From the NCBI GenBank assembly GCA_949130485.1, contig OX422183.1, positions 25,869,316-25,933,315 of the forward strand: 64,000 nucleotides of DNA, read 5' to 3'. The stretch is from Agelas oroides (Eukaryota; Porifera; Demospongiae; Agelasida; Agelasidae). The position numbers and the translations under genes were made by a program. The notes under the pieces were generated by a model. It made no database searches and was not told the DNA's origin. It saw only the letters and a program-made list of their open reading frames with translations. Positions 1 through 64,000 of the stretch are shown here, one piece after another; the first letter of the stretch is position 1; every line of letters begins with the position of its first letter.

Positions 1-185
1 ACTTTTGTCCATCTGTCCCTGTCCCTATGTCCCTGTTTGCTTCCATGTATCCCTGTCCAGGAAATTTTCATCTAATGAACATTGATTTGCCAGCTGGTGT
101 TTGTGCACCCCCACTTGACGCACAACTGCCTCTGTTGCTGTCCCACTATCCATTCGATGTTCTGCTTCTGTGTCTTTCACTTTGT
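1..185 (+). repeat. 3' tail of a spacer module (partial, runs in from the left)
   Basis: The first 185 bases match the spacer tail at 10843-11020: the words GGAAATTTTCATCTAATG and TTGCCAGCTGGTG, then the CACCCCCACTTGACGCACAA stretch, then CTTCTGTGTCTTTCACTTTG leading into the hexamer array. The window therefore opens at the end of a spacer like S1 or S4, inside the second 181-bp tail unit. No coding content is seen. Confidence 0.85.
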
Positions 186-331
186 CCGTGTGTCCCTGTC
201 ACTATCCCTGTTCCCCTGTCCCTATCCCTGTTCCCCTGTCCCTGTTGCTGTCACTATCCCTGGCCCCTGTCCCTATTCCTCTGTCCCTTTCCCTGTTCTA
301 ATCCGTCTGTCCATGTCCCTATGTCTGTCCT

Positions 332-501
332 TCTCCCCTTGCCCCGGTACCTGTCCCTGCCAATCTTCCTCTGTCCCAGGTCTGTCTCTGATCTCGTACC
401 GGTACCAGTCCTTGCTTCTTTGTCATCTTCCCTCTGCCCTCCACTGAAGTCCTTCTGCTCCTGTTTTTATCCCTCCAGGACCATTTCTGGCCCTCTCTTC
501 C
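332..501 (+). repeat. M0 block, copy 1
   Basis: A non-hexamer word block just downstream of a spacer tail. It runs from CCTTGCCCCGGTACC to ACCATTTCTGGCCCTC and contains the 10-bp palindrome GTACCGGTAC at 396-405. It recurs at the same place after every complete spacer (11174, 28230, 35327, 48491) and is absent after the two truncated spacers. Confidence 0.8.
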
Positions 502-630
502 TGTTTCCCCATTCCTGTCCCTCTGTCCCTGTCCCTCTGTCCCTTTGTCCCTGTCACTCTGTCCGTGTCTCACTCGCTATTCCAGTCCCTCTTTCCTTAT
601 TCTTGTCCGTCTGTTGTGTTTCTGTTGCTG

Positions 631-890
631 TCCAAGCCCCCCTTTCCATGTCCCTTTCCGTAGATCCCCGTTTCTGTCCTCCTTTCCCTGTTCCTGTCCC
701 TGTCTGTCTGTCACAGTCCCTGTCCTTCGGTCCATGTCCATCTGCCCTTTCTCTGTTCCTGTACCTTTCGCTGTGATTCCTTCCTGTCCCTCTCTCAGCC
801 TGTCACTGTCCCTCTGTCCCTTTCCCTACGTCTGTCAATTGTCCCTCCATCCCTGTGTCCTTGTCCGTCTGTCCTCGCCCCTATTTCTGT
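631..890 (+). repeat. B block, class I, copy 1
   Basis: A block of about 260 bp recognised by CCCTTTCCATGTCC, then CCGTAGATCCCCGTTTCTG, CTGCCCTTTCTCTG, TGTGATTCCTTCCTGTC, TGTCAATTGTCC and CGCCCCTATTTCTG. Class I has the TGCCCTTTCTC and TGTCAATTG forms and usually lies next to a spacer. Confidence 0.8.
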
Positions 891-1844
891 GTCCCTCTCC
901 CTGTTCACCTGTCCCCCTGTCCCTGTCATCTGTTCCGATCCCTGTCCCTGTCCTCTGTTCCGATCCCTGTCCCTCTGTGCTTGTCCCTTGTCACTCTCCC
1001 TGTCGCTCTCCCTGTCCCTCTATGCTGTCCCTCTGTCCTTCTCCGTCTGTCCTTGTGCCTCTGTCCTTGTCCCTCTGTCCTTGTCCCCTGTCACTCTCCC
1101 TGTCCCCCTGTCCCTGTGCCTCTGTTCCGGTCCCGTTTCCTCTGTCCTTGTCCCCTTTCCCCCTGTCACTGACCCTCTGTCCCTGTCCCTCTGTGCTATC
1201 CCTCTGTCCTTCTCCCTCTGTCCTTGTCCCTCTGTCCCTGTCCCTCTGTCCTTGTTCCCTGTCACTCTCCCTGTCCAACTGTCCCTGTTCCTCTGTCGTG
1301 TCCCTCAGTCCCTGTCCCCCTATCCCTCTTCCTCTGTCGTGTGCCTCAGTCCCTGTCCTTCTTTCCCTATTCCAGTCCATTTGTCCCCTTTCATGTGCCC
1401 TTGTCCATCTGTCCTTTCCCCTATTTCTGTGTATCTCTACCTGTTGCCCTGTCCCCCTGTCCCTTTCCCCCTGTCCCTGTCCCTCTGTCCCTCTCACTGT
1501 GTCCCCGTTCCTGCCTATGTTTCTATCCACCTCCCTCTTCCTTCTCCCCATCCCTCTGTCCCTGTACATCTCTCCGTGTCCCTCTGTCCTTACCCATCTG
1601 TCATGCTGTCCCTGTTCCGGTCCTTGTCCGTCTGTCTCTGTTCTTCTTTGTGTACCTCTCCTTGTCCCTCTGTCCCTGTACCTATCTCCCTTTCTCTGTC
1701 CCTGTCCTCATCTCAATCTCATTATCCATATCCCTTTGTCCCTGTAAATCTGGCCTTGTCACTGTGTTCCTGTTCCTGTCTTTGTCCCGATCCATCTCCC
1801 TCTTCCATGTCCCCATCCCTCTGTCCTTGTCCCTCTGTCCTTGT

Positions 1845-1889
1845 CCCTCTGTCCCTGTCCCTCTGTCCCTGTCCCTCTGTCCCTGTCCC
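1845..1889 (-). other. Clean hexamer run with G-quadruplex pattern (G-rich strand is -)
   Basis: CCC tracts on the + strand are separated alternately by TGT and TCTGT. On the - strand this gives at least four GGG tracts with loops of 3 and 5, the classical intramolecular G-quadruplex pattern. Similar runs lie at 39851-39900 and 51104-51153. Confidence 0.65.
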
Positions 1890-3178
1890 TCTGTCCTTGT
1901 CCCTGTCCTTGTCCCTTTGCTTCTGTCTCATCTCTACTTGTCCCTATACCTCTTTCCTTATTCCAGTGCCTGCGTCCTTGTGCATCTGTCCTTCCCCTAT
2001 TTCTGTGTCCCTCTTCCTGTCCTCCTCTCCCACTGTCCCTGTCCCTCTGTCCCTGTCCCTGTCCCTCTGTCCTTTTTCCCTGTCACTCTCACTGTACCCT
2101 TGTCACTGTCCCTATTTGTGTCCCTCTCCGTGTCCCTCTGTCCCTCCTCTGTCTCCTGCACCTGTCTCCTTGTCCCTCTTCCTGTCCTTGTCTCAGTTTT
2201 TGTCCATGTTCATCTCCATCTTCCTTGTCCCTATCCCTCTGTCCCTGTACATCTGGCCCTGTCTCTCTCTCCCTCTTCCTGTCTTTGTCCTATCCATCCG
2301 TCCATATCCCTTTGTTCTTGTACATCTGGCCCTGTCACTCTGTCCGTGTTCCTGTCTTTGTCCTTATCCATCTCCCTCCTCCATGTCCCCCTCCCTCTGT
2401 ACCTGTCCCTCTGTCCTTGGCCATCTCTCACTCTGTCACTGTTCCCTGTCACTCTGTCCCTGTTCCTGTCCTTGTCCGTCTATCCTTGTCCCTGTCCCTA
2501 TTTGTGTTCCTCTCCCTGTCCCTCTGTCCCTGTACCTATCTCCCTGTCTCTGTCCCTCACCTCATCTCTATCTCCCTTTTCTTTATCCATATCCTTTTTT
2601 CCCTGTACATCTCGCCGTGTCACTCTGTCCCTGTTCCTGTTTTTGTCCCTATCCATCTCCCTCTTCCTTGTTCATATCCGTTTGTACCTGTACATCTGGC
2701 CCTGTCACTCTGTTCCTGTTCCTGTCCATCTGTATCTGTCCCTGTCACTGTCCCTCTATCCCTCTCTCTGTCCCTGTTTCCCTTCCAATTTTTCCATCCC
2801 TCTGTCCCTGTTGTCCTGTCTATGTCCCAGTCCCAGTCCTTGTGCCTATGTATCTCCCTCTTCCCTGTCCTTCTATCCTGGTCCCTCTGTCCCCGTTCCT
2901 TTCTATCTGTCATAGTCCCTGTTCCTTTGCTTTCATTCATTTCCTATCCCTCCTGTCATTGTCCCTGTCCCTGTCACTCTATCTCTGTTCCTGTTCCTGT
3001 CCCTCTGCAGCTGTCCCTGTCCTTCATCCCCTGTCCCTGTTCCTGTTGTTATCACCACCGCTCTGTCCCTGTCTGTGTCACCCTGTCCCTGTTCCTGTCC
3101 CTCTCCCGGTCCGTGTCTCAGTCACTATTCCAGTCACTCATTCCTTGTTCTTGTCCGTCTGTTGTGCTTCTATTCCTG

Positions 3179-3438
3179 TCCAAGTCCCCCTTTCCATGTC
3201 CCTTTCCATAGATCCCCGTTTCTGTCCTCCTTTCCCTGTTCCTGTCCCTGTCTGTCTGTCACAGTCCCTGTCCTTCGGTCCATGTCCATCTGCCCTTTCT
3301 CTGTTCCTGTACCTTTCGCTGTGATTCCTTCCTGTCCCTCTCTCAGCCTGTCACTGTCCCTCTGTCCCTTTCCCTATATCTGTCAATTGTCCCTCCGTCC
3401 CTGTATCCTTGTCTGTCTGTCCTCACCCCTATTTCTGT
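3179..3438 (+). repeat. B block, class I, copy 2
   Basis: Same words as the copy at 631-890, with TGTCAATTG and the variant CTCACCCCTATTTCTG. It lies inside array A1 with no spacer next to it, so it is an internally duplicated segment. Confidence 0.8.
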
Positions 3439-4015
3439 GTCGCTCTCCCTGTTCACCTGTCCCCCTCTCCCTGTCCTCTGTTCCGATCCCTTTCCCTCTG
3501 TCATTGTCCCCTGTCACTCTCCCTGTCACTCTCCCTGTCCCTCTGTGCTGTCCCTCTGTCCTTCTCCCTCTGTCCTTGTCCTTCTGTCCTTGTCCCTCTG
3601 TCCTTGTCCCTCTGTCCTTGTCCCCTGTCACTCTCCCTGTCCCCCTGTCCCTCTCCCTCTGTTCCAGTCCCGTTCCCTCTGTCCTTGTCCCCTGTCCCCC
3701 TGTCGCTGACCCTCTGTCCCTGTCCCTCTCTGCTATCCCTCTGTCCTTCTCCCTCTGTCCTTGTCCCTCTGTCCCTGTCCCTCTGTCCTTGTTCCCTGTC
3801 ACTCTCCCTGTCCCACGGTCCCTGTTCCTCTGTTGTGTCCCTCAGTCCCTGTCCCCTGTCACTCTCCCTGTCCCTCTGTCCCTCTCCCTCTGTCCCTCTC
3901 CCTCTGTCATGTCCCTCATTCCCTGTCCTTCTTTCCTTATTCCAGTCCATTTGTCCCTGTTCATGTGTCCTTGTCTGTCTGTCCTTTCCCCTATTTCTGT
4001 GTATCTCTACCTGTT

Positions 4016-4039
4016 CCCCTGTCCCCCTGTCCCCCTGTC
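4016..4039 (+). repeat. CCCCTGTC octamer, 3 units
   Basis: Three perfect tandem octamers after the shared word GTGTATCTCTACCTG. The paralogous positions carry 5 units (12321), 6 units (29221), 3 units (59139), about 2 degenerate units (near 1446) and at most 1 (near 36383). Confidence 0.85.
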
Positions 4040-7000
4040 CCTGTCCCTCTGTCCCTCTGACTGTGTCCCTGTTCCTGCCTATGTTTCTATCCACCTCCCT
4101 CTTCGTTCTCCCCATCCCTCTGTCCCTGTACATCTCTCCCTGTCCCTCTGTCCTTATCCATCTGTCACTCTGTCCCTGTTCCAGTCCTTGTCCGTCTGTA
4201 TCTGTTCCTCTTTGTGTCCCTCTCCTTGTCCCTCTGTCCCTGTACCTATCTCCCTGTCTCTGTCCCTCTCCTCATCTCTATCTCCCTTTTCTTTATTTGT
4301 ATCCTTTTGTCCCTGTACATCTCGCCCTATCACTCTGTCCCTGTTCCTGTCTTTGTCCCTATCCATCTCCCTCTTCCTTGTTCATATCCGTTTATCCCTG
4401 TAGATCTGGCCCTGTCACTCTGTTCCTGTTCCTGTCCATCTGTACCTGTCCCTGTCACTGTCCCTCTATCCCTCTCTCTGTCCCTGTGTCCCTTTCAATA
4501 TTTCCGTCCCTCTGTCCCTGTTGTCCTGTCTATGTCCCAGTCCCAGTCTTTGTGCCTATGTATCTCCCTCTTCCCTGTCCTTCTATCCTTGTCCCTCTAT
4601 CCCCGTTCCTTTCTATCTGTCATAGTCCCTGTTTCTTTGCTGTCATTCATTTCCTATCCCTCCTGTCATTGTCCCTGTCCCTGTCACTCTATCCCTCTTC
4701 CTGTTCCTGTCCCTCTGCAGCTGTCCCTGTCCTTCAACCCCTGTCCCTGTTCCTGTTGTTATCACCACTGCTCTGTCCCTGTCTGTGTCACCCTGTCCCC
4801 GTTCCTGTCCCTCTCCCAGTTCCCATCCGTCTGTCCCTCTGTTTCTCTTTCCCTCTGTTCCTGTCCCTATGTCTGGCCTTGTCCCTTTCACCCGGTCTGA
4901 CAATACCTGTCGCTCCCTGTCCTTGTTCCTCTCCTTGTCCCTGCCCTTGTTCCTGTTCCTGTCCCTGTCTGTGTCACTTTGTCTGTGTCACTCTGTCCGT
5001 ATCCCTGTCCCTCTGTCCCTGTTTTTGTAACCCTGTTCATGTTCCTGTTCTATGTCACTGTTCATCTGTCCCTGTCGCTATGTCTGTCCTTGTTTCTCTG
5101 TCCATGTCTGACTATTCCTATCGCTGTCCCTCTGTCGTTGTTTCTCTCTCCGTGTCTGACTATTCCTGTCACTGTCCCTCTGTCCCTGTCATGTCCTGTC
5201 CCTGTCCACCTGTCCCTCTGTCCCTCTCTCCCTGTCCTGTCCATGTTCCTGTCCGTGTTCCTCTCCCTTTCTTCCTGTTCCAATGTCCCATTGCCTGTTT
5301 GTGTGTCCATGTCCCAGTGCATTTCCCTCCACCCCTGTCCTTCTCCCCTGGTCCCTCTGTCCCTGTCTATCTGTTCCTGTCACTCAGTCCCCGTTCCCTG
5401 TTCCTGGGAGCTGTCTATCTGTCACAGTCCCTATCCCTCTGTCCCTGTCAATCTGGCCTTGTCTTTGTCCCTGTCCCTATTGCGGTGATTTTCTTCCTGT
5501 CCCTATCGCTGTCCCAAACTACCTTTTTCTCTCTCCCTCTGTCCCTATCCCTCTGTCCCTATCCCTCTGTCCCTGTCCCTTTTCCTGTCCCTATCCTTGT
5601 CCGTCTGTCATTGTCCCTCTGTTCCTGTCCCTGTCCCTCTGTCCTTGTCCCCAGTCACTCTCCCTGTCCCCCTGTCCTTGTCCCTCTGTCGTGTCCCTCA
5701 GTCCCTGTCCCTCTGTCTCTGTCTCATCTCTCTTGGTCCCTATACCTCTTTCCTTATTCCAGTCCCTGTGTCCCTGTCCCTATGTCCTTGTGCATCTGTC
5801 CTTCACCTACTTCTGTGTCCCTCTCCCTGTCCTCTTGTCACACTGTCCCTGTCCCTTTGTCACTGTCCTCTGTCCTTGTCTCTCTGTCCCTATCCCTCTG
5901 TCCTTGTCCCCTGTCACTCACCCTGTCCCCCTGTCTGTATTTGTGTCCCTCTCCATGTCCCTCTGTCCCTGTACCTGTCTCCTTGTCTCTGTCCCCGTCC
6001 TTGTGTCTATCTCACTCTTCCTTGTCCATATCCATTTGTCCCCATACATCTGGCATTGTCATCCTGTCCCTGATCCTTTCTGTGTCCATATCCATCTCCG
6101 TCTTCCTTGTCCCTATCCCTCTGTCCCTGTACATCTGGCCCTGTCACTCTGTTTCTGTTCCTGTCCATCTGTCTCTGTCCCTGTCACTGTCCCTCTATCC
6201 CTCTCTCTGTCCCTGTGTCCCTTTCAATTTTTCCGTCCCTCTGTCCCTGTTCTCCTGTCTATGTCCCAGTCCCAGTCCTTGTGCCTATGTATCTCCCTCT
6301 TCCCTGTCCTTCTATCCTAGTCCCTCTGTCCCCATTCTTTTCTATCTGTAATAGTCCCTGTCCCTTTGCTGTCATTGATTTCCTATCCCTGTCCCAGTCC
6401 CTCTGTCCCTCAGTCTCTGTCCCTATGTGTGTCCTTCTCCCTGTCACTCTATCCATTCCCCTGTTCCTATTCCTGTCCCTTTGCAGCTGTCCCTCTCCTT
6501 CAGCCCCAGTCCTTGTTTCTGGCGTTATCACTATCGCTCTGTCCCTGTCTGTGTCACCCTGTACCCATTCCTGTCCCTTTGTCCCTTTTCCTCTGTACCT
6601 TTCTCTGTTCCCATCCGTCTGTCCCTGTCCCTCTGTTTCTCTTTCCCTCTGTTGCTGTCACTGCGTCTGGCCCTGTCCCTCTATCCCTGTTTGACTATTC
6701 CTGTCGGTCCCTGTCCTTGTTCCTGTCTTTGTCCCTGCCCTTGTTCCTGTTCCTGTCCCTGTCTGTGTCACTTTGTCTCTGTCATTCTGTCCGTGTTCCT
6801 GTCCCTTTGTTTCTGTTCCTCTGTCCCAGTCCTTGTTTTGTCCGTCCCTGTCCCGGTCCATTTCCCTCTCTCCCTGTTTCCGTCCCTGTCCTTCTGTCCT
6901 GGTCCCTCTGTCTCTATCCATCTGTTCCTGTCACTCAGTCCCTTTTGCTTATTCCTGTCTATCTGTCACGGTCCCTGTCCATCTGTCATTGTCTCTGTCC

Positions 7001-7054
7001 CTGTGCATTTCGCTGTCCTTATTGCTGTCCCCAACTCGCTGTCCCTCTGTCCCT

Positions 7055-7173
7055 ATTAACTCTACCCCTTGTTCATAGTGCCATGGATGCATGTGTTAAA
7101 TTTGGCATGTCCAAAGTTGTTTAGTGTATAATTTATATGTATATAGGCTGCCTTATCTGTTCTGAGGGTTATT
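7055..7173 (+). repeat. M1, A/T-rich island in the array, copy 1
   Basis: A 119-bp island unlike the hexamer. It runs from ATTAACTCTACCCCTTG through CATGTGTTAAATTTGGCATG and TATAATTTATATGTATATAG to GGGTTATT. It lies 1.5 kb before spacer S1. This copy lacks the GAGTTCCTTAAGCTTG word found just upstream of the other five copies, and has GGATGC where most have GGGTGC. Confidence 0.88.
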
Positions 7174-8555
7174 GTCCCTATCCCTGTCCCTATGTCCCTG
7201 TTTGTGTCACCCTGTTCATGTTCCTGTCCTTTGTCACTGTTCCTCTGTCCCTGTCCCTATGTCTGTCCTTGTTTCTCTGTCCCTGTCTGACTATTCCTGT
7301 CGCTGTCCCTCTGTCCTTGTTTCTCTGTGCCTGTGTGACTATCCCTGTCACAGTCCCTCTGTCCCTGTCATATCCTGTCCCTGTCCCTGTCCAGTCCCTG
7401 TCCTGTCCCTGTCCATCTGTCCCTCTGTCCCTGTCCTGTCCACGTTCCTGTCCCTCCTCCTGTCCCTTTCTTCCTGTTCCTATGTCCCATTGCCTGTTTG
7501 TGTGTCCATGTCCCAGTCCATTTCCCTCCATCCCTGTCCTTCTCCCCTGATCCCTCTGTCCCTGTCTATCTGTTCCTGTCACTCAGTCCCTGTTCCCTGT
7601 TCCTGGGTACTGTCTATCTGTCACAGTCCCTGTCCCTCTGTCCCTGTCGATCTGGTCTTGTCATGTCCCTGTCCCTATCGCTGTCCCAAACTACCTTTTC
7701 CTCTCTCCCTCTGTTCTTATCCCTCTGTCCCTGTCCCTTTTCCTGTCCCTATTCTTGTCCCTCTGCCCTGTCTTTGTCACCCTGTCCCTGTTCCTGTCGC
7801 TTTGTCTCTGTTTCTCCATCCCTTTCCCTGTTTCTAACTTTCTGTCTCAGTCACTGTTTGTATGTCCCTCCGTTCCTGTCCCTGTCCATTTCCCTGTCCA
7901 TCTCCCTCTCTCCTTGTCCCGGATGTTGTCTCTCTATTCCTCCCTCTGTCCCTCTGTCCCTATCCATGTTCTCATATCTCTGCCCCTGTCCTTGTCCTTG
8001 TGCCTATTTGTCTCCCTCTTCCCTATCCTTCTTTCCAAGTCCCTCTGTTCCTGTTCATCTGTTCCGGTCCCTCTGTCCCTGTCAATCTGTTCCTGTCACT
8101 CTGTCCCTGTTCCTATCTATCTGTTACAGTCGCCCTAACATTGTACCCCTGTCACTCTGTTCCTGTCCCTGTGCCCCTATTCCTGTCCCTTTCCGTCTGT
8201 CCATGTGCTGGCCTCTGTCCATATCCCTCTGTTCCTGTGACCCTCGACGTCCTTGTCCTTGTCACTATCCCTCTCTCCCTGTCCCCTTGTCCCTCTGTCC
8301 CTAACTCTTTCTCCTCTGTCCCTGTCCTTCTGTCCATCTTCCAGTTCCTCTACCTGTCCATATCCCTCTCTCCCTGTCCCTGTCCCTCTGTCCGTATCTC
8401 AGTCCCTGTCTTTCTCTCCCTGTCCCCTTCCCTGTCGCTCATTCCCTATCCATGTCCCTCTCTCCCTGTTGCTATGTCCCTTTCCCTGTCTCTCTCTCCC
8501 TGCCTCTTTCGCTCTATCCCCCTCTCCCTGTCCCTGTGTTTGTCCTTCTGTCCTT

Positions 8556-8960
8556 GACTCTACCCTCTCTTTCGTTGATATACCTGGTTCTACTAGGTTC
8601 ATTATGACATCCCCCAACTTTTGTAGTTACGCTTAAATCTACTTGGTTGTACTTGACTCACCCAACTCTATGCTATAATGCTCTACCAGGTTTAGTTGAA
8701 CTCTCCTACAGTCTGCTACGTTGTACTACTAGAATCTATACAACACTCTGTATCCCACTCTACCGTAGCTTCTAATGGAATCTGCCTGACTCCACTACAC
8801 TCTACCATAGCTCTACCTGATTCTAAGGGACTCTGCTTGACTCCACCTCTCTCTGCCATGGCTCTCCCTGATTCTACAGGAGAGTATTTGACTCCACCTA
8901 ACTTAACCATGGATTTCCTGGTTCCAATCAATGCCACCCTTACTCTACATCTTTCTGGTT
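8556..8960 (+). repeat. CTCTAC/TTGACTC degenerate short repeat at the spacer 5' end
   Basis: The words GACTCTACC, GGTTCTACT, TTGACTCCACC and CTCTACCTGATTCTA recur at irregular spacing. This looks like the decayed remains of a second short tandem repeat. It also explains why a 90-codon frame (8696-8968) stays open in all six spacer copies. Counterparts: 19828-20243, 25737-26152, 32644-33058, 46039-46450 and 56443-56858. Confidence 0.6.
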
Positions 8961-9464
8961 CTACTTGACTGTTGTAATTTTACAAAGATAGTGGTTTTGT
9001 TGCTTCTTACTTTCTTTTTTCCTACTTATATGCACTTACTCCTTACTAAAGCATCCCTGCATGTCTCAAGAAGTCATGCTACAACTAGGGCAGACTCTGC
9101 ATCTAGTGAGGTTTTTGTATTGAAGAAGTCCCACAATCAACTTTACACTGACATGAATTCTGCACAATGTAACACGCTATTACAGCATAAACCCTTCCCC
9201 CTGACTCACCTCAGAACCAGCCAACTCCTCCTCCACTTATCTCCAGTAACAGTCTAACCTCTTTCCACAACACGTACACTAGCTCCCAGCATGAAGAGTC
9301 CTTATCTGGATTCCTTCAATTATTCAGCCCTACCCTAGCATGCATGTAATCTGGAACAAATGGCCGTCACCCTCCCCCCCTTTCCCCCTCCCGCAAAGAT
9401 CCCTACGGATTACAGGAAGACATAATTTGCACAGTTTTGTGAGTGTTACCTCAGCAAATGGGAG

Positions 9465-9522
9465 CTACGATGTGCGTCGTAGCAGTGTTGGCGCTCCCCC
9501 ACCCGACACCCCAACCACTGCT
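9465..9522 (+). other. Double inverted repeat / hairpin in S1
   Basis: Stem 1 is CTACGA (9465-9470) with TCGTAG (9477-9482). Stem 2 is AGCAGTGTTGG (9481-9491) with CCAACCACTGCT (9511-9522), one base unpaired, around a C-rich loop. It could be a cruciform or the fold of a spacer transcript. No function is shown. Confidence 0.6.
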
Positions 9523-10037
9523 GTGTAGCTATCTCTTGGATACACTGACAACGCAGTGGGAATGGAGGCGATGTAGCTACACTACCTGCAATGTTGAAGT
9601 TCTTAGAAGCTAGTATAGATAGTCAAAAGTACAAAAATCATATAAGCTAGGCAGTAATCTTGATGACATTCTGCCAAATGCATGCAACTGAACAAAAAAA
9701 AAAAATTTTGAGCAAAAAGTTTCCCCACTAGGGTGAGGTCTTGGGGTATTGGGCTACCAGTCCCAGGTAACACCTGATGGCAGAGCCAGAGCCCCTCTCC
9801 TCCTTGCAGCTGGCTAGGCTGACACCCCTGGTTCCACTCCGTGTCCAGAGTCTGTGGGATGTAAGGGAGGAACAGAGCGGTCCCTAGACCATATCGAGCA
9901 GCCAACTCGCATAGCTCTGAACCTTCTAACAGCTTTGGTTATGACTGTTAGTCCCCACAGTCTCCATGTAGGACACTCCCCAACAGCTGCGCACAGTGTG
10001 GGTACTAGTAAAAGTGTTTTTCTCCTATTTATACTGC

Positions 10038-10045
10038 TATAAAAT
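10038..10045 (+). promoter_or_regulatory. TATA-like box TATAAAAT in S1
   Basis: TATAAAAT is present and identical in all five spacers that reach this point. About 70 bp downstream lies a CpG-rich, alternating purine-pyrimidine patch (TGCGCGTGCGCGC at 10114-10126). That combination is promoter-like, but no recognisable transcript follows. It is a weak call. Confidence 0.25.
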
Positions 10046-10648
10046 GCGTCCCTAATAATTATGGGTTTCGAAACAATGAATATCATCAACGTCTCGTTAA
10101 TTACATTTCCGCTTGCGCGTGCGCGCTTTCGCTTGCACCTCATTAGCCCTCGCGGTCGCGGAACCAGACTCGGACTCCGCGAGCTAACCAGATCCAAACG
10201 CAGTTTTTGTCACTACTGGCAGGAGCCGTGTGAAGGTCTGCAGTCTAGATCAAAGGACAAATGTTAGCTTCAGGCTAGGGTACAGCTGGAAGTAACAGCT
10301 AGCCACACGATCATGGCTGAGAGTCAACGTATCAGAGACAGTGCTGCATTACGTCACAGATGATGTGGTGTCTTCTGGTTTCCCATGGTGGCTCATCATC
10401 TATCAGGTACAGGGTGCACTTGCAGATTGCTCTGAGAAGAACAGTCAGTAAGATATCAAGGTGATTGTGTAACCAACATAGGCAGTGTTGTCCCATTGTG
10501 TCTCATGATGTCACATGGGATCTCATCATGTTACATGATGGTTCGTGTTGTCTGATGGTTTCAAGGTTTCATGTCGAAGCACCCTGATGACCAGTGTTTT
10601 TGAAGCATATCTACCAAAACAAAGTCACTTGGCCATAACTGACCAACC

Positions 10649-10717
10649 CATTTGAGCCATAAATGCCCACCCATTTATGGTGTAAATGCCACACCCATTT
10701 ATGACAAATGCCACACC
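10649..10717 (+). repeat. 24-bp VNTR in S1, 3 units
   Basis: Tandem units of the form CATTTATGACATAAATGCCA plus CACC, here 23, 24 and 22 bp long. They end before TATTCAAGCGATGAATG. Unit number differs between spacers: 3 here, 4 in S3, 1 in S4, 2 in S5. Confidence 0.8.
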
Positions 10718-10744
10718 TATTCAAGCGATGAATGTCTCATTCCC

Positions 10745-11020
10745 GATTTGCCAACTGGTGCTGGTGCACCCCCACTTGACACACAACTGCCTCTGTTGCT
10801 GTCCCACTATCCATTCCGTGTTCTTTTGTTTCTGTGTCTTTCACTTTTGTCCATCTGTCCCTGTACCTATGTGCCTGTTTGCTTCCATGTATCCCTGTCC
10901 TGGAAATTTTCACCTAATCAACATTGATTTGCCAGCTGGTGTTGCTGCACTCCCACTTGACGCACAACTGCCTCTGTTGCTGTCCCACTATCCATTCCAT
11001 GTTCTTCTGTGTCTTTCACT
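10745..11020 (+). repeat. 181-bp tail unit of S1, tandemly duplicated
   Basis: GATTTGCCA(A/G)CTGGTG occurs at 10745 and again at 10926, a period of 181 bp. Each is followed by CACCCCCACTTGAC, CACTATCCATTCC and GTGTCTTTCACTTT. S4 has the same duplication with the same period. S3 and S5 have one unit. Confidence 0.85.
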
Positions 11021-11173
11021 TTGTCCGTCTGTCCCTGTCCCTACGTCCCTGTCAAAATCCCTGTCACTATCCCTGTTCCCCTGTCCCTGTTGCTGTCACT
11101 ATCCCTGGCCCGTCTCCCTATTCCTCTGTCCCTTTCCCTGTTCTAATCCGTCTGTCCATGTCCCTATGTCTGT

Positions 11174-48164: not shown

Positions 48165-48212
48165 CATTTGAGCCATAAATGCCACACCCATTTATGACAT
48201 AAATGCCATACC
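48165..48212 (+). repeat. 24-bp VNTR in S5, 2 units
   Basis: Two 24-bp units before TATTCAAGCGATG. Confidence 0.82.
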
Positions 48213-53163: not shown

Positions 53164-53447
53164 CTCCAAGTCCCCCTTTCCATGTCCATTTCCGTAGATC
53201 CCCGTTTCTCTCCTCCTTTCCCTGTTCCTGTCCCTGTCTGTCTGTCACAGTCCCTGTCCTTCGGTCCGTGTCCATCTGTCATGTCTCTGTTCCTGTCCCT
53301 TTCGCTGTCATTCTTTCCCGTCCCTCTCTCACTCTGTCACTGTCCTTCTGTCCCTTTCCCTGCGTCTGCCAATTGTCCCTCCGTCCCTGTTTACTCTATC
53401 CCTGTCCCTGTGTCCTTGTCCATCTGTCCTCGCCCCTATTTCTGTGT
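53164..53447 (+). repeat. B block, class II, copy 11
   Basis: CATCTGTCATGTCTCTG and TGCCAATTG plus GTTTACTCTATCCC; preceded by a C block. Confidence 0.8.
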
Positions 53448-54915
53448 CCCTCTCCCTGTCCCTCTGTCCTTGTCCCCAGTCACTCTCCCTGTCCCCCTGT
53501 CCTTGTCCCTCTGTCGTGTCCCTCAGTGCCTGTCCTTCTGTCTCTGTCTCATCTCTGTTGGTCCCTATACCTCTTTCCTTATTCCAGTCCCTGTGTCCCT
53601 GTCCCTATGTCCTTGTGCATCTGTCCTTCACCTACTTCTGTGTCCCTCTCCCTGTCCTCTTGTCACACTGTCCCTGTCCCTTTGTCACAGTCCTCTGTCC
53701 TTGTCTCTCTGTCCCTATCCCTCTGTCCTTGTCTCCTGTCACTCACCCTGTCCTCTTGTCTCTATTTGTGTCCCTCTCCATGTCCCTCTGTCCCTGTACC
53801 TGTCTGCTTGTCTCTGTCCCTGTCCTTGTGTCTATGTCACTCTTCCTTGTCCATATCCATTTGTCCCCATACATCTGGCACTGTCATCCTGTCCCTGATC
53901 CTTTCTGTGTCCATATCCATCTCCGTCTTCCTTGTCCCTATCCCTCTGTCCCTGTACATCTGGCCCTGTCACTCTGTTTCTGTTCCTGTCCATCTGTCTC
54001 TGTCCCTGTCACTGTCCCTCTATCCCTCTCTCTGTCCCTGTGTCCCTTTCAATTTTTCCGTCCCTCTGTCCCTGTTCTCCTGTCTTTGTCCCAGTCCCAG
54101 TCTTGTGCCTATGTATCTCCCTCTTCCCTGTCCTTCTATCCTGGTCCCTCTGTCCCCATTCTTTTCTGTCTGTAATAGTCCCTGTCCCTTTGCTGTCATT
54201 CATTTCCTATCCCTGTCCCAGTCCCTCTGTCCCTCATTCTCTGTCCCTATGTTTTTCCTTCTCCCTGTCACTCTATCCATTCCCCTGTTCCTATTCCCGT
54301 CCCTTTGCAGCTGTCCCTCTCCTTCAACCCCAGTCGCTGTTTCTGGTGTTATCACTATCGCTCTGTCCCTGTCTGTGTCACCCTGTCCCCATTCCTGTCC
54401 CTTTGTCCCTTTTCCTCTGTCCCTTTCTCTGTTCCCGTCCGTCTGTCCCTGTCCCTCTGTTTCTCTTTACCTCTGTTGCTGTCACTGTGTCTGGCCCTGT
54501 CCCTCTATCCCTGTTTGACTATTCTTGTCGGATCCTGTCCTTGTTCCTCTCTTTGTCCCTGCCCTTGTTCCCGTTCCTGTCCCTGTCTGTGTCACTTTGT
54601 CTCTGTCATTCTGTCCCTGTTCCTGTCCCTTTGTTTCTGTTCCTCTGTCCCAGTCCTTGTTTTGTCCGTCCCTGTCCTGGTCCATTTCCCTCTCTCCCTG
54701 TTTCCGTCCCTGTCCTTCTGTCCTGGTCCCTCTGTCTCTATCCATCTGTTCCTGTCACTCAGTCCCTGTTGCTTATTCCTGTCTATCTATCATGGTCCCT
54801 GTCCATCTGTCATTGTCTCTGTCCCTGTGCATTTCGCTGTCCTTATTGCTGTCCCCAACTCGCTGTCCCTCTGTCCCTGTCCCTATGAGTTCCTTAAGCT
54901 TGTCCCTCTGTCCGT

Positions 54916-55034
54916 ATTAACTCTACCCCTTGTTCATAGTGCCATGGGTGCATGTGTTAAATTTGCCATGTCCAAAGTTATTTGGTGTATAATTTATATG
55001 TATATAGGCTGCCTTAACTGTTCTGAGGGTTATT
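54916..55034 (+). repeat. M1, A/T-rich island, copy 5
   Basis: 119 bp; preceded by GAGTTCCTTAAGCTTG; has TTTGCCATG where most copies have TTTGGCATG; 1.4 kb before S6. Confidence 0.88.
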
Positions 55035-56442
55035 GTCCCTATCCCTGTCCCTCTGTCCCTGTTTGTGTCACCCTGTTCATGTTCCTGTCCTTTGTCACTG
55101 TTCCTCTGTCCCTGTCCCTATGTCTGTCCTTGTTTCTCTGTCCCTGTCTGACTATTCCTGTCGCTGTCCCTCTGTCCTTGTTTCTCTGTGCCTGTGTGAC
55201 TATCCCTGTCACAGTCCCTCTGTCCCTGTCATATCCTGTCCCTGTCCCTGTCCTGTCCCTGGCCTGTCCCTGTCCATCTGTCCCTCTGTCCCTGTCCTGT
55301 CCACGTTCCTGTCCCTCCTCCTGTCCCTTTCTTCCTGTTCCTATGTCCCATTCCCTGTTTGTGTGTCCATGTCCCAGTCCATTTCCCTCCACCCCTGTCT
55401 TTCTCCCCTGATCCCTCTGTCCCTGTCTATCTGTTCCTGTCACTCAGTCCCTGTTCCCTGTTCCTGGGTACTGTCTATCTGTCACAGTCCCTGTCCCTCT
55501 GTCCCTGTCGATCTGGCCTTGTCATGTCCCTGTCCCTATCGCTGTCCCAAACTACCTTTTCCTCTCTCCCTCTGTCCTTATCCCTCTGTCCCTGTCCCTT
55601 TTGCTGTACCTATTCTTGTCCCTCTGTCCTGTCTTTGTCACCCTGTCCCTGTTCCTGTCGCTATGTCTCTGTATCTCCATCCCTTTCCCTGTTTCTATCT
55701 TTCTGTCTCAGTCCATGTTTGTATGTCCCACCGTTCCTGTCCCTGTCCATTTCCCTGTCCATCTCCCTCTCTCCTTGTCCCGGATGTTGTCTCTCTATTC
55801 CTCCCTCTGTCCCTCTGTCCCTATCCATGTTCTCATATCTCTGCCCCTGTCCTTGTCCTTGTGCCTATTTGTCTCCCTCTTCCCTATCCTTCTTTCCAAG
55901 TCCCTCTGTTCCTGTTCATCTGTTCTGGCCCCTCTGTCCCTGTCCATCTGTTCCTGTCACTCTGTCCCTGTTCCTATCTATCTGTTACAGTCACCCTATC
56001 ATTGTACCCCTGTCACTCTGTTCCAGTCACTGTGCCTTTGTTCCTGTCCCTTTCCGTCAGTCCATGTGCTGGCCTCTGTCCATGTCCCTCTGTTCCTGTG
56101 ACCCTCGACGTCCTTGTCCTTGTCACTATCTCTCTCTCCCTGTCCCTGTACCTGGGCCTTTGTCCCAAACTCTTTGTCCTTGTCCCTCTGTCCCTAACTC
56201 TTTCTCCTCTGTCCCTGTCTGTCTGTCCATCTTCCAGTTCCTCTACTTGTCCATATCCCTCTCTCCCTGTCCCTCTGTCCGTATCTCAGTCCTTGTCTTA
56301 CTCTCCCTGTCCCCGTCCCTGTCCCTCATTCCCTATTCATGTCTGTCTTTCCCTGTCCCTATGTCCCTTTCCCTGTCTCTCTCTCCCTGCCTCTTTCGCT
56401 CTATCCCCCTCTCCCTGTCCCTGTGTTTGTCCTTCTGTCCTT

Positions 56443-57157
56443 GACTCTACCCTCTCTTTCGTTGATATACCTGGTTCTACTAGGTTCATTATGACATCCC
56501 CCAACTTTTGTAGTTGTACTGGATTACCCTTAACTCTACTGGGTTACCCTTCACTCTACCGAACTCTATGCTATAATGCTCTACCAGGTTTAGTTGAACT
56601 CTCCTACAGTCTGCTACGTTGTACTACTAGAATCTATACAACACTCTGTATCCCCCTCTACCGTAGCTTCTAATGGAATCTGCCTGACTCCACTACACTC
56701 TACAATAGATCTACCTGATTCTAAGGGACTCTGCTTGACTCCACCTCTCTCTGCCATGGCTCTATCTGATTCTACAGGAGAGTATTTGACTCCACCTCAC
56801 TTCACCATGGATTTCCTGGTTCCAATCAATGCCACCCTTACTCTACATCTTTCTGCTTCTACTTGACTGTTGTTATTTTACAAATATAGTGGTTTTGTTG
56901 CTTCTTACTTTCTTTTTTCCTACTTGTATGCACTTACTCCTTACTAAAGCATCCCTGCATGTCTCAAGAAGTCATGCTAGAACTAGGGCAGAATCTGCAT
57001 CTAGTGAGGTTTTTCTGTATTGAAGAAGTCCCACAATCAACTTTACACTGACATGAATTCTGCACAATGTAACACGCTATTAAAGCAGAAACCCTTCCCC
57101 CTGACTCACCTCAGAACCAGCCAAATCCCCCTCCACTTATCCCCAGTAACAGTCTAA
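56443..57157 (+). repeat. Spacer module S6 (truncated after about 0.7 kb)
   Basis: Only the first third of the spacer is present: the CTCTAC-rich part, the 90-codon + frame (56594-56866), and sequence up to CCCAGTAACAGTCTAA. It then joins array sequence (ATGTCTGAACTTGTCC). Hairpin, TATA box, VNTR, tail and M0 are all missing. The array side of the junction falls in the same array segment as the S2 junction. Confidence 0.88.
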
Positions 57158-58355
57158 ATGTCTGAACTTGTCCCTCTCCCCCGGTCTGACTATTCCTGTC
57201 GGTCCCTGTCCTTGTTCCACCCTTTGTCCCTGCCCTTGTTCCTGTTCCCATCCCTGTCTGTGTCACTTTGTCTGTGTCACTCTGTCCCTGTTCCTGTGCC
57301 TTTGTTTCTGTTGCTATATGTCCCTGTCCTTGTCCCTCTGTCTCTATTCATCTGTTGCCGTCACTCAGTCCCTGTTGCCTGTTCCTGTCTATCTGTCACA
57401 TTCCCTATCCATTTTCTCTGTCATTGTCTCTGTCCCTGTGCATTTCGCTGTCCTTATTGCTATCCCCAACTCACTGTCCCTCTGTCCGTGTTCATCTCCC
57501 TCTTCCTTGTTCATACCCCTTTGTCGCTATCCATCTCCCTCTTTCTTGTACCTATCCCTCTGTCCCTGTCCCTCTGTCCCTGTCCATTTCTCCTTGGCCC
57601 TCTGTCACTCTGTCACAGTTCCCTGTCACTCTGTCCCTGTTCCTGTCCTTGTCCGTCTGTCCTTGTCCCTGTCCCTATTTCTGTCCCTCTCCCTGTCCGT
57701 CTGTCCCTGTACCTATCTCCCTGTCTCTGTCCCTCTCCTCATCTCTATCTCCCTTTTCTTTATCCATATCCTTTTGTCCCTGTACATCTCGCCCTGTCAC
57801 TCTGTCCCTGTTCCTGTCTTTGTCCCTATCCATCTCCCTCTTCCTTGTTCATATCTGTTTGTCCCTGTACATCTGGCCCTGTCACTCTGTTCCTATTCCT
57901 GTCCATCTGTATCTGTCCCTGTCACTGTCCCTCTATCCCTCTCTCCGTCACTGTGTCCCTATCAATTTTTCCATCCCTCTGTCCCTGTTTTCCTGTCTAT
58001 GTCCCAGTCCCAGTCCTTGTGCCTATGTATCTCCCTCTTCCCTGTCCTTCTATCCTGGTCCCTCTGTCCCCGTTCCTTTCTATCTGTCATAGTCCCTGTC
58101 CCTTTGCTGTCATTCATTTCCTATCCCTCCTGTCATTGTCCCTGTCCCTGTCACTCTATCTCTGTTCCTGTTCCTGTCCCTCTGCAGCTGTCCCTGTCCT
58201 TCAACCCCTGTCCCTGTTCCTGTTGTTATCACCACCGCTCTGTCCCTGTCTGTGTCACCCTGTCCCCGTTCCTGTCCCTCTCTCGGTCCGTGTCTCAGTC
58301 GCTATTCCAGTCCCTCTTTCCTTAATCTTGTCCGTCTGTTGTGCTTCTGTTCCTG

Positions 58356-58578
58356 TCCAAGTCCCCCTTTCCATGTCCCTTTCTGTAGATCCCCGTTTCT
58401 GTCCTCCTTTCCCTGTTCCTGTCCCTGTCTGTCTGTCACAGTCCTGTACCTTTCGCTGTGATTCCTTCCTGTCCCTCTATCAGCCTGTCACTGTCCCTCT
58501 GTCCCTTTCCCTACCTCTGTCAATTGTCCCTCCGTCCCTGTGTCCTTGTCCGTCTGTCCTCGCCCCTATTTCTGTGTC
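58356..58578 (+). repeat. B block, class I with deletion, copy 12
   Basis: About 40 bp are missing between CACAGTCC and TGTACCTTTCGCTG (the CCTTCGGTCCATGTCC and TGCCCTTTCTC words). The rest matches class I. Confidence 0.75.
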
Positions 58579-59138
58579 GCTCTCCCTGTTCACCTGTCCC
58601 CTTGTCCCTGTCCTCTGTTCCGATCCCTTTCCCTCTGTCCTTGTCCCCTGTCACTCTCCCTGTCACTCTCCCTGTCCCTCTGTGCTGTCCCTCTGTCCTT
58701 CTCCCTCTGTCCTTGTCCTTCTGTCCTTGTCCCTCTGTCCTTGTCCCTCTGTCCTTGTCCCCTGTCACTCTCCCTGTCCCCGTGTCCCTGTCCCTCTGTT
58801 CCGGTCCCGTTCCCTCTGTCCTTGTCCCCTGTCCCCCTTTCGCTGACCCTCTGTCCCTGTCCCTCTGTGCTATCCCTCTGTCCTTCTCCCTCTGTCCTTG
58901 TCCCTCTGTCGCTGTCCCTCTGTCCTTGTTCCCTGTCACTCTCCCTGTCCCACTGTCCCTGTCCCTCTGTTGTGATCCTCAGTCCCTGTCCCCTGTCACT
59001 CTCCCTGTCCCTCTGTCCGTCTCCCTCTGTCATGTCCCTCATTCCCTGTCCTTCTTTCCTTATTCCAGTCCATTTGTCCCTGTTCATGTGTCCTAGTCTG
59101 TCTGTCCTTTCCCCTATTTCTGTGTATCTCTACCTGTT

Positions 59139-59162
59139 CCCCTGTCCCCCTGTCCCCCTGTC
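59139..59162 (+). repeat. CCCCTGTC octamer, 3 units
   Basis: Three perfect octamers after GTGTATCTCTACCTGTT. Same allele size as at 4016. Confidence 0.85.
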
Positions 59163-60714
59163 CCTGTCCCTCTGTCCCTCTGACTGTGTCCCTGTTCCTG
59201 CCTATGTTTCTATCCACCTCCCTCTTCCTTCTCCCCATCCCTCTGTCCCTGTACATCTCTCCCTGTCCCCCTGTCCTTATCCATCTGTCACTCTGTCCCT
59301 GTTCCAGTCCTTGTCCGTCTGTATCTGTTCCTCTTTGTGTCCCTCTCCTTGTCCCTCTGTCCCTGTACCTATCTCCCTGTCTCTGTCCCTCTCCTCATCT
59401 CTATCTCCCGTTTCTTTATCCATATCCTTTTGTCCCTGTACATCTCGCCCTGTCACTCTGTCCCTGTTCCTGTGTTTGTCCCTATCCATCTCCCTCTTCC
59501 CTGTTCATGTCCGTTTATCCCTGTAGATCTGGCCCTGTTACTCTGTTCCTGTTCCTGTCCATCTGTATCTGTCTCTGTCACTGTCCCTCTATCCCTCTCT
59601 CTGTCCCTGTGTCCCTTTCAATTTTTCCGTCCCTCTGTCCCTCTTGTCCTGTCTATGTCCCAGTCCCAGTCCTTGTGCCTATGTATCTCCCTCTTCCCTG
59701 TCCTTCTATCCTAGTCCCTCTGTCCCCGTTCCTTTCTATCTGTCATAGTCCCTGTCCCTTTGCTGTCATTCATTTCCTATCCCTCCTGTCATTGTCCCTG
59801 TCCCTGTCACTCTATCCCTCTTCCTGTTCCTGTCCCTCTGCAGCTGTCCCTGTCCTTCAACCCCTGTCCCTGTTCCCGTTGTTATCACCACCGCTCTGTC
59901 CCTGTCTGTGTCACGCTGTCCCCGTTCCTGTCCCTCTCCCGGTTCCCATCCATCTGTCCCTCTGTTTCTCTTTCCCTCTGTTCCTGTCCCTATGTCTGGC
60001 CTTGTCCCTTTCACCCGGTCTGACAATACCTGTCACTCCCTGTCCTTGTTCCTCTCCTTGTCCCTGCCCTTGTTCCTGTTCCTGTCCCTGTCTGTGTCAC
60101 TTTGTCTGTGTCACTCTGTCCGTATCCCTGTCCCTCTGTCCCTGTTTGTGTAACCCTGTTCATGTTCCTGTCCTATGTCACTGTTCCTCTGTCCCTGTCA
60201 TGTCCTGTCCCTGTCCTGTCCCTGTCCACCCGTCCCTCTGTCCCTCTCTCCCTGTCCTGTCCATGTCCCTGTCTGTGTTCCTGTCCCTTTCTTCCTGTTT
60301 CTATGTCCCATTGCCTGTTTGTGTGTCCATGTCCCAGTCCATTTTCTTCCACCCCTGTCCTTCTCCCCTGGTCCCTCTGTCCCTCTCTATCTGTTCCTGT
60401 CACTCAGTCCCCGTTCTGTGTTCCTTGGAGCTGTCTATCTGTCACAGTCCTTATCCCTCTGTTCCTGTCGATCTGACCTTGTCTTTGTCCCTGTCCCTAT
60501 TGCTGTCATTTTCTTCCTGTCCCTCTCGCTGTCCCAAACTACCTTTTTCTCTCTCCCTCTGTCCCTATCCTTCTGTCCCTATCCCTCTGTCCCTGTCCCT
60601 TTTCCTGTCCCTTTTCCTGTCCCTATCCTTGTCCGTCTGTCCTGTCTGTGTCACCCTGTCCCTGTTCCTGTCCCTCTTTCCTTATTCTTCTCCGTCTGTT
60701 GTCCTTCTGTTCCT

Positions 60715-60998
60715 GTCCAAGTCCCCCTTTCCATATCCATTTCCGTACATCCCCGTTTCTGTCCTCCTTTCCCTGTTCCTGTCCCTGTCTGTCTGTCACA
60801 GTGCCTGTCCTTCAGTCCGTGTCCATCTGTCATGTCTCTGTTCCTGTCCCTTTCGCTGTCATTCTTTCCCGTCCGTCTCTCACTCTGTCACTGTCCTTCT
60901 GTCCCTTTCCCTATGTCTGCCAATTGTCCCTCCGTCCCTGTTTACTCTATCCCTGTCCCTGTGTCCTTGTCCATCTGTCCTCGCCCCTATTTCTGTGT
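60715..60998 (+). repeat. B block, class II, copy 13
   Basis: TGCCAATTG and GTTTACTCTATCCC forms; CCGTACATCCCC for CCGTAGATCCCC; preceded by a C block. Confidence 0.8.
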
Positions 60999-62500
60999 CC
61001 CTCTCCCTGTCCCCCTGTCATTGTCCCTCTGTTCCTGTCCCTGTCCCTCTGTCCTTGTCCCCAGTCACTGTCCCTGTCCCCCTGTCCTTGTCCCTCTGTC
61101 GTGTCCCTCAGTACCTGTCCCTCTGTCTCTGTCTCATCTCTCCTGGTCCCTATACCTCTTTCCTTATTCCAGTCCCTGTGTCCCTGTCCCTATGTCCTTG
61201 TGCATCTGTCCTTCACCTACTTCTGTGTCCCTCTCCCTGTCCTCTTGTCACACTGTCCCTGTCCCTTTGTCACTGTCATCTGTCCTTGTCTCTCTGTCCC
61301 TATCCCTCTGTCTTTGTCCCCTTTCACTCACCCTGTCCCCCTGTCTCTATTTGTGTCCGTCTCCATGTCCCTCTGTCCATGTACCTGTCTCCTTGTCTCT
61401 GTCCCTGTCCTTGTGTCTATCTCACTCTTCCTTGTCCATATCCATTTGTCCCCATACATCTGGCACTGTCATCCTGTCCCTGATCCTTTCTGTGTCCATA
61501 TCCATCTCCGTCTTCCTTGTCCCTATCCCTCTGTCCCTGTACATCTGGCCCTGTCACTCTGTTTCTGTTCCTGTCCATCTGTCTCTGTCCCTGTCACTGT
61601 CCCTCTATCCCTCTCTCTGTCCCTGTGTCCCTTTCAATTTTTCCGTCCCTCTGTCCGTGTTCTCCTGTCTATGTCCCAGTCCCAGTCTTGTGCCTATGTA
61701 TCTCCCTCTTCCCTGTCCTTCTATCCTGGTCCCTCTGTCCCCATTCTTTTCTATCTGTAATAGTCCCTGTCCCTTTGCTGTCATTCATTTCCTATCCCTG
61801 TCCCAGTCCCTCTGTCCCTCATTCTCTGTCCCTATGTGTGTCCTTCTCCCTGTCACTCTATCCATTCCCCTGTTCCTATTCCCGTCCCTTTGCAGCTGTC
61901 CCTCTCCTTCAACCCCAGTCGCTGTTTCTGGTGTTATCGCTATCGCTCTGTCCCTGTCTGTGTCACCCTGTCCCCATTCCTGTCCCTTTGTCCCTTTTCC
62001 TCTGTCCCTTTCTCTGTTCCCATCCGTCTGTCCCTGTTCCTCTGTTTCTCTTTCCCTCTGTTTCTGTCACTGTGTCTGGCCCTGTCCCTCTATCCCTGTT
62101 TGACTATTCCTGTCGCTCCCTGTGCTTGTTCCTCTCTTTGTCCCTGCCCTTGTTCCTGTTCCTGTCATTATCTGTGTCACTTTGTCTCTGTCATTCTGTC
62201 CCTGTTCCTGTCCCTTTGTTTCTGTTCCTCTGTCCCAGTCCTTGTTTTGTCTGTCCCTGTCCCGGTCCATTTCCCTCTCTCCCTGTTTCTGTCCATGTCC
62301 TTCTGTCCTGGTCCCTCTGTCTCTATCCATCTGTTCCTGTCACTCAGTCCCTGTTGCCTATTCCTGTCTATCTGTCACGGTCCCTGTCAATCTGTCATTG
62401 TCTCTGTCCCTGTGCATTTTGCTGTCCTTATTGCTGTCCCCAACTCGCTGTCCCTCTGTCCCTGTCCCTATGAGTTCCTTAAGCTTGTCCCTCTGTCCCT

Positions 62501-62619
62501 ATTAACTCTACCCCTTGTTCATAGTGCCATGGGTGCATGTGTAAAATTTGCCATGTCCAAAGTTGTTTGGTGTATAATTTATATGTATATAGCCTGCCTT
62601 AACTGTTCTGAGAGTTATT
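62501..62619 (+). repeat. M1, A/T-rich island, copy 6
   Basis: 119 bp; shares TTTGCCATG with the copy at 54916; has GTGTAAAATTTG and GAGAGTTATT variants. It is not followed by a D block or spacer in this window. Confidence 0.85.
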
Positions 62620-63319
62620 GTCCCTATCCCTGTCCCTCTGTCCCTGTTTGTGTCACCCTGTTCATGTTCCTGTCCTTTGCCACTGTTCCTCTGTCCCTGT
62701 CCCTATGTCTGTCCTTGTTTCTCTGTCCCAGTCTGACTATTCCTATCGCTGTCCCTCTGTCGTTGTTTCCCTGTCCGTGTCTGACTATTCCTGTCACTGT
62801 CCCTCTGTCCCTGTCATGTCTTGTCCCTGTCGTGTCCCTGTCCATCTGTCCCTCTGTCCCTCTCTCCCTGTCCTGTCCATGTTCCTGTCCGTGTTCCTGT
62901 CCCTTTCTTCCTGTTCCTATGTCCCACTGCCTGTTTGTGTGTCCATGTCCCAATCCATTTCCCTCCACCCCTGTCCTTCTCCCCTGGTCCCTCTGTCCCT
63001 GTCTATCTGTTCCTGTCACTCAGTCCCCGTTCCCTGTTCCTGGGAGCTGTCTATCTGTCACAGTCCCTATCCCTCTGTCCCTGTCGATCTGGCCTTGTCT
63101 TTTACCCTGTCCCTATTGCTGTCATTTTCTTCCTGACCCTATCGCTGTCCCAAACTACCTTTTTCTCTCTCCCTCTGTCCCTATCCCTCTGTCCCTATCC
63201 CTCTGTCCCTGTCCCGTTTCCTGTCCTCATCCTTGTCCGTCTGTCCTGTCTGTGTCACCCTGTCCCTGTTCCTGTCCCTCTTTCCTTATTCTTCTCCATC
63301 TGTTGTCCTTCTGGTCCTG

Positions 63320-63600
63320 TCCAAGTCCCCCTTTCCATGTCCATTTCCGTACATCCCCGTTTCTGTCCTCCTTTCCCTGTTCCCGTCCCTGTCTGTCTGT
63401 CACAGTCCCTGTCCTTCAGTCCGTGTCCATCTGTCATGTCTCTGTTCCTGTCCCTTTCACTGTCATTATTTCCCGTCCGTGTCTCACTCTGTCACTGTCC
63501 TTCTGTCCCTTTCCCTATGTCTGCCAATTGTCCCTCCGTCCCTGTTTACTCTATCCCTGTCCCTGTGTCCTTGTCCATCTGTCCTCGTCCCTATTTCTGT
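63320..63600 (+). repeat. B block, class II, copy 14
   Basis: Shares CCGTACATCCCC and CTTCAGTCCGTG with the copy at 60715, so the two are sister copies about 2.6 kb apart. Confidence 0.8.
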
Positions 63601-64000
63601 GTCCCTCTCCCTGTCCCCCTTTCATTGTCCCTCTGTTCCTGTCCCTGTCCCTCTGTCCTTGTCCCCAGTCACTGTCCCTGTCCCCCTGTCCTTGTCCCTC
63701 TGTCGTGTCCCTCAGTCCCTGTCCCTCTGTCTCTGTCTCATCTCTCCTGGTCCCTATACCTCTTTCCTTATTCCAGTCCCTGTGTCCCTGTCCCTATGTC
63801 CTTGTGCATCTGTCCTTCACCTACTTCTGTGTCCCTCTCCCTGTCCTCTTGTCACACTGTCCCTGTCCCTTTGTCACTGTCATCTGTCCTTGTCTCTCTG
63901 TCCCTATCCCTCTGTCCTTGTCCCCTTTCACTCACCCTGTCCCCCTGTCTCTATTTGTGTCCCTCTCCATGTCCCTCTGTCCATGTACCTGTCTCCTTGT

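Follow-up and report, generated by a model that had tools for sequence, protein, structure and literature searches.

A 64,000-nucleotide stretch of the genome of the sponge Agelas oroides (contig OX422183.1, here C1, positions 25,869,316–25,933,315; hereafter the window) consists of long arrays of a degenerate TGTCCC hexamer alternating with non-hexamer spacers. The initial annotation had described the system as a gene-free satellite. That description does not hold, as a small-RNA gene of predicted U6 type is present on the minus strand in five of the window's six spacers, and three of these five genes are intact by every strict criterion used. Read in the sense of the minus strand, a complete unit contains an upstream spacer of ~0.7 kb, a promoter, an RNA gene of ~321 nt that ends in four or five thymidines (T4-5), a downstream spacer of ~1.2 kb, and finally 4–10 kb of degenerate (GGGACA)n.

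Spacer 1 (8556..10790) is complete. Its gene copy (9714..10003, minus strand) is 290 nt long, ends in T5 and lacks a 31-nt stretch that is present in most copies; the promoter occupies 10026..10068 on the same strand, with AAACCCATA at 10068-10060 and TATAAATA at 10033-10026. Gene copies 2, 4 and 5 (21005..21325, 33811..34131 and 47192..47512, all on the minus strand) are each 321 nt long, with promoter motifs and T5 terminator intact. They lie in spacer 2 (19828..21699), the right end of which is truncated, spacer 4 (32644..34801) and spacer 5 (46039..48285), respectively. The copy in spacer 3 (25737..28041) is altered: in this gene (26915..27231, minus strand) AAACCCATA is changed, the TATA spacing is off by one and the terminator run is interrupted. 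Only the left third of spacer 6 (56443..57157) is present, and the gene is absent.

The promoter of the array core is composed of AAACCCATA, exactly 35 nt to TATAAATA, then N14 and TTACTAGT. The arrangement AAACCCATA-35 nt-TATAAATA is common to the array RNA, two U6 loci and the RNase P RNA gene of the same genome, and TATAAATA-N14-TTACTAGT is common to the array core and both U6 loci, on contigs C18 and C2. Genome searches scored the best candidates only. Among these, the best U6 gene (C18, 117 bits) has the full promoter and is the sole full-length U6 with such a promoter, and the sole RNase P RNA gene (C7:447094-447393, 158 bits) has TACCTAGT instead of TTACTAGT. For a sponge, an RNase P RNA gene that bears typical RNA polymerase III (Pol III) signals is reported in PMC4287351. 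The 70 nt that precede U6 were used to scan both strands of 260 kb of C1. The top 18 places were the 18 gene starts of this region, scoring 45–47 of 70 for 17 copies and 39 for an altered copy; the next best place scored 37.

A search for TATAAATA-N14-TTACTAGT with at most one mismatch returned 72 places, 46 of them in the array, compared with 29 for a reversed-pattern control. Exact matches outside the array number eight: the two U6 loci, a candidate at C2:15.731 Mb that resembles them, a further candidate at C3:5.442 Mb and four places with the promoter variant of the array RNA. The consensus predicted RNA is 321 nt long and begins with ACCCACACUGUG, the predicted 5' end being ACCCACAC; TTTT occurs at its end only, with none internal. 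A T4-5 terminator without internal TTTT is found in the consensus and in most copies, the exceptions being one copy with a broken run and locus L002, for which the matched end lies further on and TTTT occurs internally. From these elements we infer that the core of the spacer is a U6-type (type 3) Pol III gene.

The window belongs to a single array of ~602 kb that extends past it on both sides, starting at ~C1:25.7467 Mb and ending at ~26.3487 Mb, in a genome of 259.3 Mb and 141 contigs. Sequence was read continuously at 25.680–25.940 and 26.326–26.352 Mb, and the middle of the array was followed through probe matches and five short loci. A 32-base core probe, searched against the whole genome with up to 2 mismatches, matched 49 places with a median spacing of 11.7 kb, one of which is a 150-bp local duplicate. 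All 49 are within the array in one orientation, so that the search of other contigs for the spacer, proposed in the initial annotation, gave no place outside it. The core is present as a whole or partial ~321-nt element on the minus strand in 24 of 25 aligned spacers. At C1:25.747–25.940 Mb, 11 of 18 gene copies pass every strict criterion, and for a further two (315 and 321 nt, T5) the end pattern is the only criterion failed, by one base.

When the spacers are aligned (23 copies counted), one block is less variable than the remainder; in minus-strand sense it opens with a TATA box and closes with TTTTT. The pooled distance of the array copies to their consensus is 47/8300 (0.6%) in the core, compared with 472/23946 (2.0%) to the left and 248/10960 (2.3%) to the right. 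The misaligned copy L005 was left out of the diversity figures; without it, 18 copies have segregating sites at 34/385 positions of the core, 224/1160 on the left (p = 5.8e-7) and 96/540 on the right (p = 1.1e-4).

Outside the array, the promoter variant of the array RNA occurs at C1:26.470, C3:8.134, C18:3.715 and C2:11.874 Mb. The full RNA is kept at the first three of these places (in one with two deletions), and the fourth has the RNA start only; TGTCCC is absent around all four, with ~1.1 kb read for each. Substitutions, counted with gaps ignored, amount to 13/322 in the RNA and 64/319 in the flanks of one full-length relative (p = 1.5e-10), 3/297 and 46/422 in a second (p = 1.6e-8), and 7/322 and 47/361 in a third (p = 4.9e-8). 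Overall, the RNA of the three relatives is 1–4% substituted and the flanks 11–20%. Locus L037 was left out as a control, most of its RNA part being unrelated sequence. The outermost left copy of the array, whose T-run is one base shorter, has 0/384 substitutions in the core and 36/432 in the adjoining flanks (p = 8.6e-11). In a tree with 22 array copies (three of the 25 left out), the array copies group as a single clade to the exclusion of the dispersed ones (FastTree support 0.997). Because the dispersed and left-edge copies keep the RNA while their flanks diverge, purifying selection is favoured over homogenisation alone, and the RNA is probably under such selection.

Rfam gave no match at gathering score across the window, and for two core copies searched at E ≤ 10 nothing came near the gathering score of any family. 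In the same genome, U6 and RNase P were recovered as a control. Since the canonical genes of U6, RNase P and RNase MRP each lie elsewhere in the genome, the array RNA is none of these. The core is without an Rfam match to U6, to nuclear RNase P (RF00009; separate gene on C7) or to RNase MRP (RF00030; separate gene on C15). No tRNA was found in the window by ARAGORN, and simple patterns detected no C/D boxes, Sm site or A/B boxes in the RNA. A check for a telomerase template for TTAGGG found only the 6 nt ACCCUA in the RNA, and four contig ends were read without TTAGGG. Viral contigs scanned for a 29-base core pattern gave no match.

A protein-coding function was also rejected: the longest open reading frame (ORF) within the RNA that begins with methionine is 32 amino acids. 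The spacer consensus has stop-to-stop frames of up to 131 amino acids. The 131-residue frame, on the minus strand, spans the promoter and the RNA start; its length in 22 copies ranges from 69 to 133 residues, and Pfam gave no match to it. Of the 16 spacer frames, five were searched against Pfam, with one weak match to a TraN domain (16.9 bits, cut-off 27).

The nested organisation described in the initial annotation is real, with lags of 6, 14 and 20 dominant at base level in the hexamer, periods of 6 to 443 bp from Tandem Repeats Finder (48, 73, 85 and 171 among those listed, of 503), block lags of about 1.7 and 2.3–2.6 kb inside the arrays, and then the units. The proposed word of 81–85 bp is present as one period among several. 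TGTCCC occurs 1738 times on the plus strand and GGGACA not once, and self-BLAST gave no minus-strand match at E ≤ 1e-10, which bears out the head-to-tail order of the window without inversion. The spacer starts given above had all been placed correctly, and the unit lengths of 11,272, 5,909, 6,907, 13,395 and 10,404 bp, with one more unit cut by the window end, agree with the stated variation of ~6–13 kb. The hexamer arrays, with TGTCCC on the plus strand, occupy 1..8555, 10791..19827 (which opens with non-hexamer islands), 21700..25736, 28042..32643, 34802..46038, 48286..56442 and 57158..64000, the last being cut by the window end. The view of the whole window as one satellite system stands insofar as it is a tandem system with spacers; it is not a pure satellite, as the fifth hexamer array is broken at about 45.07–45.94 kb by a dispersed element. 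This element (about 45066–45945) has inverted ends GGACTGGGTCCAG, recognised by eye, and all 40 matches scored from 285 candidates are 91–100% identical and lie on many contigs.

Pairs of units in the window share colinear blocks of 1.2–10.1 kb, with a mean identity of 88–95% where aligned. Two successive spacings in the array are exactly 12,426 bp; the first and second of these units show 1 mismatch over 12,426 positions, and between the second and third there is 1 difference in the first 5000 bases. Neighbouring units are thus near-identical and, barring an error of assembly, the array was amplified recently. The window contains 82 G-quadruplex motifs on the G-rich strand and none on the other, whereas 20 shuffles that keep the base composition gave a mean of 23 and a maximum of 33. 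The sense strand of the RNA genes coincides with the G-rich strand of the hexamer arrays.

Taken together, the sequence features lead us to assign a probability of roughly 0.9 to a macrosatellite of small-RNA genes at this locus, with one U6-type Pol III gene in most of its units. For the human RNU2 macrosatellite, which carries the U2 small nuclear RNA (snRNA), 5–82 copies of a 6.1-kb unit are reported (PMC4132748), and titles in the reference list of that source describe a (CT)n.(GA)n in the unit and evolution in concert. The sponge array resembles RNU2 in having one small-RNA gene per multi-kb unit, a high copy number, one locus, a pyrimidine/purine simple repeat in the unit, and concerted evolution, seen here as a single clade of array copies and near-identical neighbours. 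Its units are arranged head to tail, exceed 1 kb and carry one small-RNA gene, which some units have lost or altered. The array differs from RNU2 in its U6-type promoter with a TATA box, in an RNA that is absent from Rfam, in a simple repeat that is a hexamer tract of 4–10 kb and makes up most of the unit, and in a unit length that varies widely. The U6 and RNase P genes of the same genome share with it AAACCCATA, the 35-nt spacing, TATAAATA and a T-run after the RNA, but the array RNA is unlike them in its about 49 tandem copies. Arrays of 5S ribosomal DNA are also tandem Pol III genes with spacers that evolve in concert, with an internal promoter and short units; the lack of A/B boxes by the simple patterns sets the sponge array apart from these. 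Literature searches on sponge satellites, centromeres and tandem repeats found nothing, and one on tandem arrays or satellites of snRNA in Porifera found insect telomerase RNA only.

In such a macrosatellite, Pol III would transcribe the array RNA, selection would maintain it, and the many gene copies would keep an abundant RNA plentiful. The pyrimidine/purine hexamer tracts could offer homology, and perhaps breaks, for unequal exchange among units, and unequal recombination would cause units to be gained, lost and kept alike. The best reading of the hexamer tracts is that they are the portion that can expand in a multigene macrosatellite like human RNU2. We give even odds to the broader proposal that the RNA represents an animal Pol III family not yet described, with a dedicated locus of ~50 genes in which an evolving, G-quadruplex-prone hexamer satellite is the main spacer and drives gene amplification. 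Repeat maskers and gene finders would probably throw out such a region as satellite, although the majority of known copies of a conserved RNA gene, one that Rfam does not list, appear to reside there. Should the RNA prove to be expressed, its ~50 copies would suggest that an early lineage of animals makes it in abundance. The locus would also permit a direct test of how spacers made of simple repeats drive changes of copy number in multigene arrays.

Several observations weigh against a macrosatellite of functional small-RNA genes. The predicted fold of the RNA is not unusually stable (z = -0.22), and 24 substitutions in the three relatives yield no compensatory pair; a possible long-range helix between GGUCUAGGGG and CCCCAAGACC does not exceed a probability of 0.05 in the predicted ensemble. 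Five of the 18 array copies are altered in the promoter motifs, by the 31-nt deletion or by a broken terminator. The second U6 locus with the promoter (C2, 70.5 bits) is 3'-truncated, a third U6 match above cut-off (C5, 77.6 bits) is without such a promoter, and the RNase MRP gene (C15:8522385-8522636, L048, 129 bits) is without the elements common to U6, RNase P and the array RNA. The left-edge copy is just 3.8% diverged further right (11/288), beyond the flanks used. At the right edge, a truncated copy with a 10-base deletion is likewise less diverged in the core (4/316) than outside it (36/815, p = 0.011). As this copy lost its promoter yet diverged little in the core, selection within the array may be supplemented by gene conversion.

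The chief alternative is that the array RNA is the 7SK of this animal, too diverged for Rfam, and that its locus was amplified. A tandem array of about 50 copies would be atypical of 7SK, and the array RNA has no match to the Rfam 7SK family (RF00100) at E ≤ 10. The U6-type promoter and the length of 321 nt do fit, as human 7SK is a Pol III product of 332 nt, and 7SK sequence is reported to be poorly conserved among protostomes (PMC8406779). No 7SK turned up elsewhere in the genome, which also fits, in an Rfam search that is itself uninformative. GAUC, the contact motif for HEXIM, is absent from the array RNA, although a fly 7SK with GAUG is also known (PMC8406779). On balance we regard a 7SK identity as unlikely.

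A centromeric, subtelomeric or sex-chromosome site had been left open in the initial annotation, and the array is not at a contig end: it is an interior locus at about 79–81% along the 32.7-Mb contig C1. The hexamer pattern also matches other contigs, where the tracts are short among the places listed. The array being one interior locus, with the core probe found nowhere else and hexamer tracts short elsewhere, there is no sign of a centromeric or subtelomeric sequence shared by every chromosome. A sex-linked site would be compatible with these observations. A centromere specific to this chromosome, with the RNA genes as passengers, would agree with a run of tandem repeats as long as ~602 kb at a single interior position on the contig; no comparable array of the same sequence is found on other contigs (for the hexamer, among the places listed), and we consider this function of the array improbable. 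A gene-free satellite, in which the core would be what is left of a U6-type gene and homogenisation alone would keep the copies uniform, is very improbable. In its favour, conversion tracts could cover a conserved stretch this short, and some copies are broken, including the little-diverged one at the right edge. Against it, the RNA is preserved in dispersed copies on three contigs next to flanks with 5–11 times more substitutions, and the core of the outermost array copy is free of substitutions beside flanks that differ by about 8%.

At the left edge of the array, a CTU1-like gene lies ~8 kb away and a reverse-transcriptase-like ORF, recognised by eye, ~1 kb away; neither decides the centromere question. 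Among 120 listed of 7117 matches to the CTU1-like protein, the best is an unnamed protein at 96% identity and the best with a name is from the coral Orbicella faveolata (75%); the sponges Halichondria panicea (80%), Corticium candelabrum, Sycon ciliatum and Geodia barretti, as well as Trichoplax and others, are also included. At the right end, a truncated unit adjoins a second satellite, from about position 2675 of locus L031 (C1:26.3487 Mb). This satellite, AGAGCCATGGTAGAGTGTAGTAGAG, has 42,121 + 64,144 matches genome-wide with up to 2 mismatches, and apparent relics of it, in the opposite orientation, were recognised by eye at the start of spacer 1 (window 8770-8912). In the right part of the array, a minus-strand open frame that resembles a mobile-element protein by eye is located at 1529-2221 of L030 (C1:26337529-26338221).

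Three further loci, L040, L041 and L042, have AAACCCATA and TATAAATA at U6-like spacing, and their Rfam matches are below gathering scores; nothing reached a gathering score in L036-L042 at E ≤ 5. We consider L040, L041 and L042 candidate novel Pol III RNAs, and both L041 and L042 contain ACCCTTGGGAGGGTT. The start of contig C18 (C18:1-500, L045) is GC-rich (0.62) and encodes a menaquinone-biosynthesis domain (PF02621); bacterial sequence has probably been attached here to an animal scaffold. The other end of C18 (L046) is a minisatellite with units of the GGGGACATTGGGTGTACACAC type.

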